Assembly: GCA_963921795.1 (NCBI GenBank)
Contig: OY997641.1
Coordinates: 31,125,460-31,189,459 of the forward strand
DNA: 64,000 nt
Origin: Nannobrachium achirus
Taxonomy: Eukaryota; Chordata; Actinopteri; Myctophiformes; Myctophidae
Reading direction: 5' to 3'
Position 1 is the stretch's first letter. Each line of letters begins with the position of its first letter. The notes below the pieces were generated by a model. The model did no database searches. It saw only the letters and a program-made list of their open reading frames with translations, and was not told where the DNA came from. The position numbers and the translations under genes were made by a program. Shown here piece after piece: positions 256 to 61,993 of this stretch.

Positions 256-1380
256 TTATGTTTTTGGAAATGAGCATTATAACATTATTTTAAAATGTTA
301 TCGTCATCGGCAACGAGTCGGCTGTGTTCCAGGGTGAATGTAAATAATAACCTTGGCTTTTTTTGACAGCTTCATAATTGATGTAACACGTGTGGTTGTT
401 GATGCTGGGGGACTGTACAGTACACCGGGTACCATGATGTAAGAACAGATCAATCTTTTAACCACCTAAACCCTAGAGTCCCTATGACATGCCTCCAGGC
501 ATGGCATAATACGTGAATATTCACGAAACTAGCAAAACCTACAAGCTCATAACACAGATGCAATGTGTTGAGAGCTTGTAGATCGCCTTGATGTCCCTTT
601 CATGCCCATATACTGTATGCTGATGGCTGATGTCATCACAAATTAATTACGTCCTTGTCCGTTTTATGCCCATATATGGAGATCCCTGTCCCGATATCAT
701 CAATATTAAAAACTCAATTAGTGCCGCCGACACAGCGTGCCGGTCGCTTTCTCCATCCGCGGCCAGTCTCTTATTTTGAAGGCCGGAAGTAGATCGAGCT
801 AACAATTCCTACTTGACGATGTTCAAGATTGACCCGGAACTAGTTCTGGTCCGAGACGTAAACAATGATAGAAGATGGATGCCTTTATGCTTGTGCTATT
901 TTAGCGAGAATCCAATGCCATCCTTGGCATCAAAAGTGTTTTTTGGAGAAAATGGACTGTAAAGATGAGAAAGACCGTTGGTTTCTATGGGATGGGATCA
1001 CTATTGTGTGCACGTGGATGCGCGATGATAATGAATCGGCGACTTCAAACGTGCCAGCGTATTTCAACGGACGGTAAATAGCCAGGCCAGCTTTACTGTA
1101 TATACAGTATATTTCGCAAGTCATCCCACGATCGGCACTCTAGATACCTTTGAATATTTTGCGAGATATCGCGGGATCGGCACTAAATCGGTTAAGCAAA
1201 TATCTGGGAATGCCCATATATGGGCATGTTCTGACGTCACATTGTTGACAACTGGTCCGATATACATCACTGGCCAGATGGCCAAGAATTGGCGTCTTAC
1301 TAAAGGTTTTAAAACCAAATGATCAATGTTAGACGATGTGGTAGAACATTTCAAAAGGCAAAATCATTTGTGAGCTAAAA
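256..1380. other. degenerate repeat region with a 70-codon open frame
   Basis: Contains a hairpin relic at 532-585 and GCCCATATATGG-type repeats near 665 and 1,212. The phrase TATACATCACTGGCCAGATG at 1,261 recurs at 24,942. An open frame at 865-1,077 (+), starting MIEDGCLYACAI, matches nothing I recognise. I do not call it a gene. Confidence 0.5.
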
Positions 1381-1547
1381 AAAACATAAGTAAAACATTT
1401 ACGATATATAGAAGATGGCATGAAACTGACAAAATGGAAAGCAAATAAAATATTTGGTTGACCCATCAGATTACTGTTGAGGAATCAAACATATGGTACC
1501 TATACAATATACGGTACTGTACTGTAGTGTTTGCACGCATGCAGAGG

Positions 1548-1698
1548 CACACACACACACACACACACACACACACACACACACACACACACACACACAC
1601 ACACACACACACACACACACACACACACACACACACACACACACACACACACACACACACACACACACACACACACACACACACACACACACACACAC
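1548..1698. repeat. (CA)75 microsatellite
   Basis: 151 bp of uninterrupted CA. Confidence 0.99.
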
Positions 1699-1947
1699 GT
1701 CCCAGAGGTAAAGTGTGAGGTAAATTACATAAAGGCTGAGGAAGGCAGACTAATGTAAGACCAGTGAGCTTCTATAAATAGCTTGTTAACGCCATGGAGC
1801 TGCCTCTCCTGGGTTTATCAGATACACCGCAGGCCTTGGACAGCGAGTGGGGGGTGGGTGGTGGGTGGTGGGGGGGGTGACAAGCATCCCTGTGCTCATC
1901 AGAGACGTGCGTGCGTGCGTGCGTGCGTTTGTTTGTGTGTGTGTGTT

Positions 1948-2020
1948 AGGGCATTAACGACTTGAGATTTTTGCAAGTCGACTCGACTAAGTAAAAAGTT
2001 TAGTTGTAGTCGACTTTATA
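1948..2020. repeat. solo hAT-like end next to a GT run
   Basis: TAGGGCATTAACGACTTGAG, then GTCGACTCGAC and AGTCGACTT, directly after GTGTGTGTGT. It resembles the TAGGG starts of hAT elements here, but no matching right end was found. Confidence 0.4.
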
Positions 2021-2135
2021 ATTTGATGATATCATATGGGGGGGAGGTAATTACTTAGCCTACCTCTGGACATGGAATATAGCATACAGTGATCCTTTCT
2101 CCCTTAATACGACTTTTGTTTAATAATTAATTAAA

Positions 2136-2240
2136 TGTGTGTGTGTGTGTGTGTGTGTGTGTGTGTGTGTGTGTGTGTGTGTGTGTGTGTGTGTGTGTGT
2201 GTGTGTGTGTGTGTGTGTGTGTGTGTGTGTGTGTGTGTGT
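2136..2240. repeat. (TG)n microsatellite
   Basis: About 105 bp of uninterrupted TG. Confidence 0.99.
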
Positions 2241-2520
2241 AAAGTGAGGCCATTTTGCTGCTTCTCATTTCTTAAGAGGCTGTTTTAAGGGTTCATCACA
2301 GGAACCCTAGCAGGGCAATACTAGCTGACCTATTATAGAGGGGACCCATTTCAACTAAGTACTGTATATACTAAGTATACCAAAAAAGTACCAGATACTA
2401 CCAGGTTGGATTCAGTTGAGCTGCCACACACAGTGGAACATAGCTGTTAGAGAGATAGGTTCAGCTTAGGGAAAAGGTTGGATTGATTGTGGTCAATGGG
2501 AATCAAGTGTATAACTGTAG
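2241..2520. other. spacer between GT microsatellites
   Basis: No gene or element recognised; bracketed by two long GT runs. Confidence 0.6.
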
Positions 2521-2626
2521 GTGTGTGTGTGTGTGTGTGTGTGTGTGTGTGTGTGTGTGTGTGTGTGTGTGTGTGTGTGTGTGTGTGTGTGTGTGTGTGT
2601 GTGTGTGTGTGTGTGTGTGTGTGTGT
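2521..2626. repeat. (GT)53 microsatellite
   Basis: 106 bp of uninterrupted GT. Confidence 0.99.
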
Positions 2627-2757
2627 AAGGGAGCAGGGTCAGAGACATGACAGAGGAGAGCTGAGGAAGATTGGAGGCGACAGCGGTTAGCCGCGCCAAC
2701 CGGAGCAGAAGAACACGGTGACATCATCATCAGCATGCTACGCGCACACCGCACACG

Positions 2758-2840
2758 CACACACACACACACACACACACACACACACACACACACACAC
2801 ACACACACACACACACACACACACACACACACACACACAC
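2758..2840. repeat. (CA)n microsatellite
   Basis: About 83 bp of CA followed by a short ATC run. Confidence 0.99.
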
Positions 2841-2971
2841 ATCATCATCACCATCATCCTGAGAACCTGGATGCTCACTCCATCTGGCATTCAGGTGCTA
2901 AGATGGCATTGATTGAACACTGTGTGCATGCTTTTTAGACTTATGTGCGTTTCAGGCTTCTATGTCCATAC

Positions 2972-3055
2972 GTGTGTGTGTGTGTGTGTGTGTGTGTGTG
3001 TGTGTGTGTGTGTGTGTGTGTGTGTGTGTGTGTGTGTGTGTGTGTGTGTGTGTGT
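2972..3055. repeat. (GT)n microsatellite, left part of a split tract
   Basis: 84 bp of GT that stops at the left end of a hAT element. The GT run resumes at 3,938. Confidence 0.97.
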
Positions 3056-60290: not shown

Positions 60291-60459
60291 TAGTCTCTCA
60301 AGAACAGGCAAGCTGAGCTCCGTTTAAGTGAAAAGGACCTTTTCTTTGACGATGGCTAGCCAGATTGCTGACATGGAAACATAGGTTTTTCAAAAAAACG
60401 TAGAAGGATTCAAAAGACACTTAAAGAATCGAGTCAAAATTCTAATTGTCACAATTTTT

Positions 60460-60534
60460 CAAAAATAGCAGATCTACAAGCTCGCAGCGCGGCACTCAGT
60501 GCCGCGCTGTGAGCTTGTATATCTGCAATTTTTC
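60460..60534. repeat. hairpin module, type B, second copy in the same intron
   Basis: Stem AAAATAGCAGATCTACAAGC with inner stem GCAGCGCGGCACT and its complement. The end TTTTTCAATAGTTAAAGCAT is shared with copies at 44.3 and 50.5 kb. Confidence 0.85.
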
Positions 60535-61090
60535 AATAGTTAAAGCATAAAATAATGATACACAATAATGTGTACCGTTCTAAATGGGTTAAGAACGCAG
60601 GGGTTAAAGCCCCAAAAAAATCCCAAGCCAAAAGAAATCCCAAGACTGAAAATATACTTCATTTTATAGAAGTATCTTCTGAAGTTCTGTTGTATTCTAT
60701 TGCTAGTCTGGGCAATTCAAATACTCATATCTTGAAATTATTACAGTACCTACAGTAACTGTAGGTATTGACTTTACGGACACATGGTGCATAGAGCAGT
60801 GTAGTGTTTAAGTTAAAAACACAGAGGAAGACACTTATACACATCCTTCAGTAGTCATTTGGACCATTATGCACCTTGAAAGCAGGGAAGAGGAAGGGTT
60901 GCAAGTGAGAACAAAAGAAAGACCATAATATTATGTTATTTATTTCTTTGCAGATTTGCACTGATCTCAGAAATAGCCCCTATGGAATCCTCAAGACTGA
61001 AATCCGTCCCCACGACTGAGAACGTTAACCCCTGAGAATGCATTATTACGCATTATTACTATAACCATTATTTTATGCTTTTAACTATTA

Positions 61091-61160
61091 AAAAATAGCA
61101 GATATACAAGCTCACAGCACGGCACCGAGTGCCACACTGCAAGCTTGTAGATCTGCTATT
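61091..61160. repeat. hairpin module, type B, in cacna1h intron
   Basis: Stem AAAATAGCAGATATACAAGC, inner stem CAGCACGGCAC, right arm ending GTAGATCTGCTATT. It is preceded by TTATTTTATGCTTTTAACTA, the same outer arm as other type B copies. Confidence 0.8.
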
Positions 61161-61226
61161 GAACATTTGTGCAAGTCTTTGAATATATTAACCCGATTCT
61201 ATAAATGTCTTCTAAATCCTTCCAGG

Positions 61227-61297
61227 GTGTGTGTGTGCGTGCGCGTGCGTGCGTGCGTGCGTGCGTGCGTGCGTGTGTGTGTGTGTGTGTGTGTGTA
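61227..61297 (+). repeat. GT/GCGT microsatellite touching a second cacna1h splice donor
   Basis: The same composite structure as at 59.7 kb. On the gene strand the intron begins GTACACACACAC. Confidence 0.95.
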
Positions 61298-61298
61298 C

Positions 61299-61420
61299 CT
61301 TCATAATCCCATTCCAGTTGTCTCCGGTGGACACTCTGAACAGTGTGAGGAATGCCATCCCGAAGTTCTCAAATGTAGCGTGGCGACTCAGGCCCTCACA
61401 TGGGTTGTCTTCATTACACT
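61299..61420 (-). CDS. cacna1h: cacna1h exon: domain IV pore loop of T-type calcium channel Cav3.2
   Basis: This internal coding exon gives two bases of a split codon and then 40 codons from CNEDNPCEG to [10 protein letters not shown]. It is the extracellular turret and pore loop of repeat IV of a T-type (Cav3) channel alpha-1 subunit. The Asp of STGDNW is the domain IV member of the EEDD selectivity filter typical of Cav3 channels. The acceptor reads TGTTGTAG then AGTGT; the donor reads ATGAAG then GTACAC. The split first codon fits a Glu shared with the previous exon, as in the LEC context of the family. That upstream exon is not in the window, so its intron is longer than 2.5 kb. The donor is followed directly by a CA/CG microsatellite. 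Cav3.1 is possible from this exon alone; the later exons settle on Cav3.2. Confidence 0.95.
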
Positions 61421-61620
61421 CTACAACAGACACACACACACACAAGATCAATATATATGGTACATGTTATAAGCAATTATAAAATAGTTTTTTGTTCCAT
61501 ACCGAAATAAATATCACACAGCGAAAGGGGTGGACACTGGACACATAACACCTTGTTCAAATATATTGTACATGTCTGTCCTTCCCGAAAAGCCCAGGAT
61601 AACCATCTTCTCATTGCAAT

Positions 61621-61720
61621 TGACACACAGACACACACACACACAGACACACACACGCACACATAGACACACACGCGCGCACAGTGCCGCACACAGACGC
61701 ACACACGCGCACAAACACAC
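61621..61720 (+). repeat. degenerate CA-rich tract
   Basis: An interrupted CACA/CAGACA/CGCA run inside the cacna1h intron, immediately left of a MITE. Confidence 0.85.
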
Positions 61721-61735
61721 ACAGACCCAACAGAT

Positions 61736-61993
61736 CGTCACTGTCGGGCAGAAACCTCGTATCGCCAGGTTTCAAATGTGCACGCTTTATCGTAAAGTAG
61801 AGCCCTGCTTCATCATACAAGGCTGTCGCACAAAACTAGTGAAAATTGCAGATCTACAAGCACACAACGCCTCGCGACGCGAGGCATTGTGTGCTTGTAG
61901 ATCAGCTATTTTCACTATTTTAAAATCATTTTTAAAATGATAAATGCAAAACGAACGGTGTTGGACATACAAGGTTTCCAGTCGACAACGACG
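61736..61993. mobile_element. CGTCACTGTCGGGCAG-ended MITE carrying a hairpin module
   Basis: Terminal repeats CGTCACTGTCGGGCAGAAAC and, reversed, CGTCGTTGTCGACTGGAAAC bound about 258 bp. The centre (61,837-61,917) is the hairpin AGATCTACAAGCACACAACG with a CGCCTCGCG inner stem. Relatives are at 49-255 and 6,866-7,102. Confidence 0.85.

Follow-up and report, generated by a model that had tools for sequence, protein, structure and literature searches.

How does one palindromic sequence come to recur behind the ends of transposons that seem to have little else in common? The question is raised by a stretch of 64,000 nucleotides from the fish Nannobrachium achirus (contig OY997641.1, positions 31,125,460 to 31,189,459), which was analysed whole and is referred to here as the window. 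A first-pass annotation of its sequence had described a hairpin in at least twenty places inside unrelated transposon families and had suggested that it either moves on its own or is repeatedly exchanged between elements. We found that the shared core is real and extremely abundant; it is ordinary in its parts (nested miniature inverted-repeat transposable elements [MITEs]) and unusual in cutting across families that differ in their ends and in their target duplications. The explanation that we favor, and hold to be slightly better than an even bet, is that the hairpin forms the palindromic core of short TTAA-targeting MITEs that belong to one old clan of very high abundance, and that it spread by nesting and by a few captures that preceded the amplification of the hosts.

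A palindromic hairpin of high copy number

An arm profile derived from 14 copies (28 arms) scored 12.6 bits or more in all 20 of the places noted earlier, while the best score in the reversed window was 4.5 bits. After merging, the window holds 27 hairpin loci (seven beyond the earlier list) with 45 arms at or above 12 bits, so the recurrence claimed for it stands. At 532, 19577, 31301, and 46683, only a single arm exceeded 12 bits in the profile scan of the window. The hairpin is roughly 75 bases long, with the arm sequence (A)AAAATAGCAGATCTACAAGCTCACAACGC and an apex that differs by family: ACGCCTCGC in many copies within the CGTCACTG-type MITE (host A) and the CAGGGGTCTTCAA hAT (host C), and GCGCGGCAC in the TTAA-flanked family D (TTAA-D). 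The two arms remain largely complementary despite this variation between families. Folded as single-stranded DNA, four good copies gave energies of -32.9 to -38.2 kcal/mol (z of -11.4 to -13.1), and none of 200 shuffles folded as well for any of them.

A search of the whole 1.66-Gb genome bears out this abundance. A 20-base core, with up to three mismatches allowed, had 747,678 matches (373,660 forward and 374,018 reverse), against 91 (44 and 47) for the reversed core pattern. Further comparisons used a 264-kb data set made of the window and 20 stretches of 10 kb picked by position (200 kb from ten contigs), of which the window, having been picked out for the hairpin beforehand, is a biased part. 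The 200 kb contain 93 arms at or above 14 bits and the reversed control contains none. In the complete set there are 96 hairpin loci, about one per 2.75 kb, 69 of them in the 20 stretches alone. In one of the sampled stretches (L023:591-737), the arm has turned into a small satellite, in which some six units of 25 bp, all containing the arm AGCTTGTAGATCTGCT, stand in tandem.

A clan of TTAA-flanked MITEs

Comparison of the flanks sorted the loci into families, the largest group being a clan with TTAA ends. It takes in 47 of the 96 loci (D 16, B 12, H 7, E 6, and C 6), other hosts take in 21 (F2 9, A 6, T 3, and G 3), and 28 were assigned to none; because the flank strings used for B and E include hAT sequence, those 18 loci rest on the nests described below. 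TTAA-type ends number 49 in the 264 kb and 9 in the reversed sequence. The motif for these ends was derived from ends beside hairpins, mainly in the window, and with it 25 of the 49 face a hairpin within 250 bp and two face away, where hairpins placed at random were faced by 4.8 ends on average and never by more than 13 over 500 trials. In the 20 stretches taken without the window, 13 of 36 ends face a hairpin and two face away (null mean 3.5, maximum 10).

Five complete elements run from TTAA to TTAA and contain hairpins, so that the main clan consists of short elements (204 to 497 bp) with inverted ends between TTAA. Two are from the sampled stretches (L035, 204 bp; L034, 214 bp) and three lie in the window, all on the forward strand (coordinates are those of the window, and a strand is given where one was assigned). 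The element at 18017-18259 (243 bp) has a central hairpin at 18105-18213 and is nested in a hAT of about 17858-18362. The one at 48321-48817 (497 bp) has two hairpins, 48378-48447 and 48585-48667, the second in a piece of hAT-F2, and that at 50102-50531 (430 bp) has one at each end, 50147-50207 and 50437-50494. After the TTAA, the ten ends of these elements read CCAC (8), CCCA (1), and CGAC (1). Judged by these terminal motifs, the clan resembles neither of two TTAA-targeting groups: the piggyBac terminus CC[C/T]T is absent from the complete elements, nine of the ten ends sharing only its first CC, and the Kolobok RR terminus (AG/AGGRR) is absent as well, all ten starting with C.

The arm profile places further TTAA-D hairpins at 44232-44307, 60027-60103, 60459-60534 (also supported by its fold), and 61090-61160. 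Three TTAA-D elements (50102-50531, about 59987-60557, and about 44018-44317) have hairpins near both ends, enclose part of a hAT terminus (GAGAACCACTG or a similar sequence), and seem to be composites amplified as a unit. By arm profile and flank comparison, a hairpin of group H with a TTAA-clan flank lies at 31317-31339 and a degraded arm with such a flank at 55641-55666. Two other degraded copies have TTAA-type ends in their neighborhood, a right arm at 565-585 (end at 458) and a hairpin at 15657-15689 (clan end at 15774).

TTAA elements nested in hAT-type hosts

The five host ends named in the first-pass annotation are all present (for the AAAGTACT repeat, the pattern used was AAAGTACTTTTACT, mismatches being allowed). 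However, three of these five hosts, the TAGGGATGG hAT, the CAGGGGTCTTCAA hAT, and the AAAGTACT repeat, hold nested TTAA-clan sequence and therefore are not independent hosts; they are best read as nests.

The evidence is clearest in the CAGGGGTCTTCAA host, in copies of which TTAA-clan sequence surrounds the hairpin; one of them contains the complete element at 18017-18259. The hairpin at 14227-14309 has a TTAA end at 14414, and the copy at 14972-15603 has nested TTAA-clan sequence with a hairpin at 15311-15387. The reverse-strand copy at 16412-16838 is flanked on both sides by the 8-bp target site duplication (TSD) GCGTATAC, and its hairpin (16532-16596) is joined directly to a TTAA end. We read this junction as an internal deletion, and it shows a route by which such an element can shrink. 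No clear target duplication was seen around the copies at 14972-15603 and about 17858-18362.

Host E, the TAGGGATGG hAT, is represented by the TAGGGATGGGACGATA element on the forward strand at 10001-10400, with the 8-bp TSD GCTGGGAG at 9993-10000 and 10401-10408 and, by arm profile, a hairpin at 10233-10281. The sequence inside is like that of the TTAA clan, with the TTAA ends altered or lost. Anchored flank alignment ties this interior to the CAGGGGTCTTCAA nest (0/150 on both sides against C4; 0.001 and 0.009 in a second test). The 8-bp duplications of hAT elements were thus found around host E and one copy of host C. In the hAT-like AAAGTACT repeat (host B), a single TTAA end adjoins the hairpin: that at 6196-6252 has it at 6272-6286, and a second hairpin was located by arm profile at 51695-51769. 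By this reading, TTAA elements nested in at least three hAT-type MITEs (TAGGGATGG, CAGGGGTCTTCAA, and AAAGTACT), whose later amplification carried the hairpin along.

Hosts without TTAA ends

Target duplications differ by host, being of 4 bp in the CGTCACTG MITE, TTAA in the MITE clan, and 8 bp in two hAT copies. The CGTCACTG-type MITE (host A) is found on the forward strand at 48-255 (TTAT/TTAT), where the hairpin is a remnant at 165-201 with the left arm largely deleted; at 6866-7102 (AAAT/AAAT; hairpin at 6969-7025); and at 61736-61993 (AGAT/AGAT; hairpin at 61839-61915). Its duplication is constant at 4 bp, identical in four of five copies (TTAT, AAAT, AGAT, and ATAT) and with one mismatch in the fifth (L027). 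By its look, a degraded arm found with the profile at 11471-11494 belongs to a decayed host A copy.

The remaining hosts, like host B, are presumably hAT elements, a label that we take from the look of their ends (CAGTGGTTCYCAA, TAGGGCTG, and CAGGGGTG). The family hAT-G (GGTGGTTCCCAAACTTTT) is hAT-like with a CAGTGGTTCCCAAAC end, and its window hairpin, identified by arm profile and flank comparison, lies at 19578-19613. Among the first 20 perfect copies listed for the CTAGTG-extended arm, 19 share the left flank with the window copy at 19585. A second hAT-like family, F2 (CAGTGGTTCTCAACC), has ends that resemble those of hAT-G by eye, so one common gain of the hairpin is possible. The hAT-like TAGGGCTG element (host T) is an additional host. 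Hosts A and G have in common not only the hairpin but also palindromic sequence just outside it (TAGTG/CACTA, reaching by eye to about AAACTAGTG), beyond which they diverge.

Another host context (GGTGAAAATAGC...) surrounds a degraded hairpin at 58972-59029 and one in a sampled stretch (L044:2962-3037). By arm profile, degraded arms also occur at 10749-10768 (locus M) and 13242-13260, and a degraded hairpin occurs at 46684-46704.

The hairpin tree follows the hosts

A tree was made from 52 of 69 full hairpins, oriented by the host flank (17 were dropped for a low host-flank score), with an alignment of 77 columns, midpoint rooting, and 29 of 49 inner branches open. Host labels change nine times on it, where seven is the minimum possible and shuffled labels gave a mean of 31.3, with a value as low in none of 200 shuffles. 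A single branch sets off each of the groups D, A, and F2 (98/94, 90/84, and 89/84). Most of the 13 G rows had been selected for a perfect arm. Near-copies favor such clustering. One row of B groups with G and another is next to D, and one of E groups with C.

Within families, then, hairpin and host label mostly go together, whereas across families a single hairpin group (G, A, and F2 with one B row, 93/88) takes in unrelated ends, a pattern that points to a few old transfers and not to continuous exchange. The repeated exchange between elements proposed earlier is not what the tree indicates, since the hairpin sequences sort by host nearly to the limit that it allows.

Origin and spread of the core

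On the favored reading, the TTAA clan is the source of the hairpin, and copies arise through transposition of the whole TTAA element and not of the hairpin alone. A few further hosts, the CGTCACTG MITE, the hAT-G/hAT-F2 group, and the TAGGGCTG element, would each have acquired the core, probably in a single event that preceded their amplification; a TTAA element may have nested in them and then lost sequence until not much more than the stable palindrome was left.

Several observations weigh against this reading. When 59 flanks from hosts A, G, F2, and T were searched with anchored profiles of the TTAA-D/B, C, and E flanks, none matched (one reached -0.6 bits). Of 61 held-out TTAA-clan flanks, these profiles pick up 41 above 8 bits, so that a decayed flank could escape them. 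Pairwise alignments of A with D gave hints (0/150 for several pairs and 0.020 for one under a lenient null; p of 0.001 and 0.012 under a stricter one) that fail correction for 145 pairs; with these suggestive and the profile tests empty, we do not claim homology between the flanks of host A and TTAA-D. The 28 of 96 loci that match no named host add to this. On the tree, labels track the hairpin overall, but G, C, E, and B do not each form one group (2, 4, 2, and 2 changes, respectively), and most G, A, and F2 rows, together with one B row, are split from the TTAA clan (93/88). With a midpoint root, this split leaves the direction of transfer unshown. Since no TTAA-clan flank was found by profile in A, G, F2, and T, the core is truly common to unrelated ends. 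The original idea of one core behind unrelated ends consequently survives for the CGTCACTG MITE, hAT-G, hAT-F2, and TAGGGCTG, while TAGGGATGG, CAGGGGTCTTCAA, and AAAGTACT, as nests of the TTAA clan, drop out of it.

The same absence of a common flank among hosts with unrelated ends would be expected if the palindrome itself were the unit transferred, cruciforms or hairpins of different MITEs being swapped by gene conversion or template switching with the host left behind. The hairpin and outer extension shared by hosts A and G before they diverge fit such swapping, as does the symmetry of the arms: derived bases are present on both arms in 35 cases, against 13.0 in shuffles (maximum of 25 in 2000; 44 hairpins from the 264 kb), a count that includes inherited changes while the shuffles ignore relatedness, the independent events being perhaps six by eye. 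Symmetry above chance also fits homogenization within a hairpin. Template switching between the arms of inverted repeats is reported to homogenize them in a yeast lineage (PMC8604942), and it may likewise keep the arms of one hairpin alike here. However, at base 8 (AGCA/AGCC) the two arms disagree in 25 of 47 hairpins, despite most other positions matching, and 17 have A/C where independence predicts 15.7; strong homogenization would lower this count, and the arms are therefore not freely homogenized there. By eye, the arm with C at base 8 is often on the same side within a host. Considering this near independence, and that repeated exchange would blur the close tracking of host by hairpin, we regard palindrome swapping as possible but rather unlikely.

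A bolder version, which we hold with little confidence, would make the core a selfish module standing above transposon families, passed as a palindrome between superfamilies (TTAA MITEs, hATs, and a MITE with a 4-bp TSD) and favoring the amplification of its carriers, to the point that a vertebrate genome now has it roughly every 3 kb.

Selection without exchange is a further candidate, in which the core would raise the success of any MITE that carries it (for example by helping strand transfer or copying linked to replication, or by letting the element evade silencing), the families that acquired it would have become the most abundant, and its spread would be owed to that advantage. Its very high copy number, its strong fold, and its occurrence in families that differ in both ends and target duplications agree with this, and the authors of the work on coral CMITEs suggest such a role for the shared internal region of those elements (PMC2872659). 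Many copies are degraded, however, and we find an amplification advantage quite improbable as the explanation.

The hairpin does not appear to move alone

In the 264 kb, both host flanks were recovered in 34 paired rows, which correspond to 32 distinct places, and 30 of these hold the hairpin. None of the 32 is a clean empty site. The two hairpin-less places, an apparent empty B site in L033 and an apparent empty D copy at 44016, are both imprecise deletions, so the precise empty sites sought among hairpin-less host copies did not materialize. Among single flanks reaching the hairpin edge, 73 of 79 continue into arm-like sequence by a loose test that 241 of 2000 random 60-mers also pass; the other six comprise two with a partial arm, one (window 6133) with the hairpin further on, the L033 deletion, and two (window 37792 and L030 4339) without an arm. 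No target duplication or direct repeat was seen at the hairpin edges when the flanks were read by eye, unscored. A genome search for the exact empty hAT-G site gave no matches, with little power, as both exact flanks occur in none of 20 known copies.

A hairpin moving freely by itself, one of the two possibilities raised at the outset, is thus not supported. An independent tiny transposon or foldback element inserting on its own is very improbable: the palindrome does look discrete and sharp edged by eye in hosts A, G, and T, but its edges differ between host groups, and neither edge repeats nor clean empty sites were seen.

Comparison with known elements

Foldback and palindromic elements resemble the hairpin in having long inverted repeats able to form a stable stem. 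They differ from the present case in that neither terminal structures nor a target duplication belonging to the hairpin itself were seen around it. With nonautonomous hAT elements, host E and one host C copy share 8-bp TSDs and hAT-like ends; however, the hAT-type hosts here are carriers of a nested element.

The closest published case seen is that of the coral CMITEs (Acropora; PMC2872659). These are TTAA families with differing end repeats and a shared interior of about 75 bp of unknown origin. As here, there are TTAA duplications, families with different end repeats around a common interior of such a size, and tandem arrays, and a new element was born from the insertion of one CMITE into another. 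The interior of the elements studied here is likewise more alike between families than their ends are, the core being common to hosts whose flanks do not match. The two cases differ in copy number, an estimated 1,600 or so CMITEs in one coral against 747,678 core matches here. Furthermore, CMITE families with different terminal inverted repeats have in common the TTAA and a CC[C/T]T end, whereas our core also occurs in hAT-type elements and in elements with a 4-bp TSD. The interior is a hairpin here, while the part of the coral report at hand does not state that the internal region is one. The T2-MITEs of Xenopus (Kolobok type) are similar in being predominant, long-lived MITEs with a TTAA target and many subfamilies, but their termini are AGGRR, where nine of the ten ends of our complete elements have CC after the TTAA (PMC6004289).

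Four arm strings tried in the open-licence literature gave no match, and the titles and beginnings of abstracts listed there contained no report of the hairpin. Rfam, searched at the gathering score over the whole window, gave no match, which rules out a known RNA gene. In the viral collection, a 17-mer is common to 13 contigs, each with one arm and with the second absent. The two-arm pattern occurs at one viral and six prokaryote places (metagenomes lay outside this search), and in all of them both the AGCAGATC portion of the arm and the flanks of the hairpin are missing; we read these places as chance or terminator-like and discard them as relatives of the hairpin.

MITE families are usually separated by their ends, and from one family to the next the interiors mostly have little resemblance. 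A core with hundreds of thousands of copies behind ends of several kinds would show that interiors can outlast and outspread ends, and repeat libraries based on interiors may, as a caution, merge unrelated families. These copies are a large natural set for asking whether an internal palindrome aids amplification; the same set bears on how nests become new families and on how the arms of inverted repeats stay alike.

Genomic surroundings

In the reverse-strand frame at 59702-60049, a 30-residue piece matches T-type (Cav3) calcium channels, with four distinct sequences of solved structures, and the Pfam match to Ion_trans scores 22.6 bits, under the curated cutoff. The channel match makes the window an animal gene region, in or beside such a gene. 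The open frame at 53344-54855, also on the reverse strand, codes for 503 amino acids rich in proline and serine without a Pfam match at an E value of 0.01, and it is perhaps a large exon of the same calcium channel gene. An inverted repeat unrelated to the hairpin lies at 34900-35226, with arms of 155 nt that are 94% complementary and 17 nt apart.

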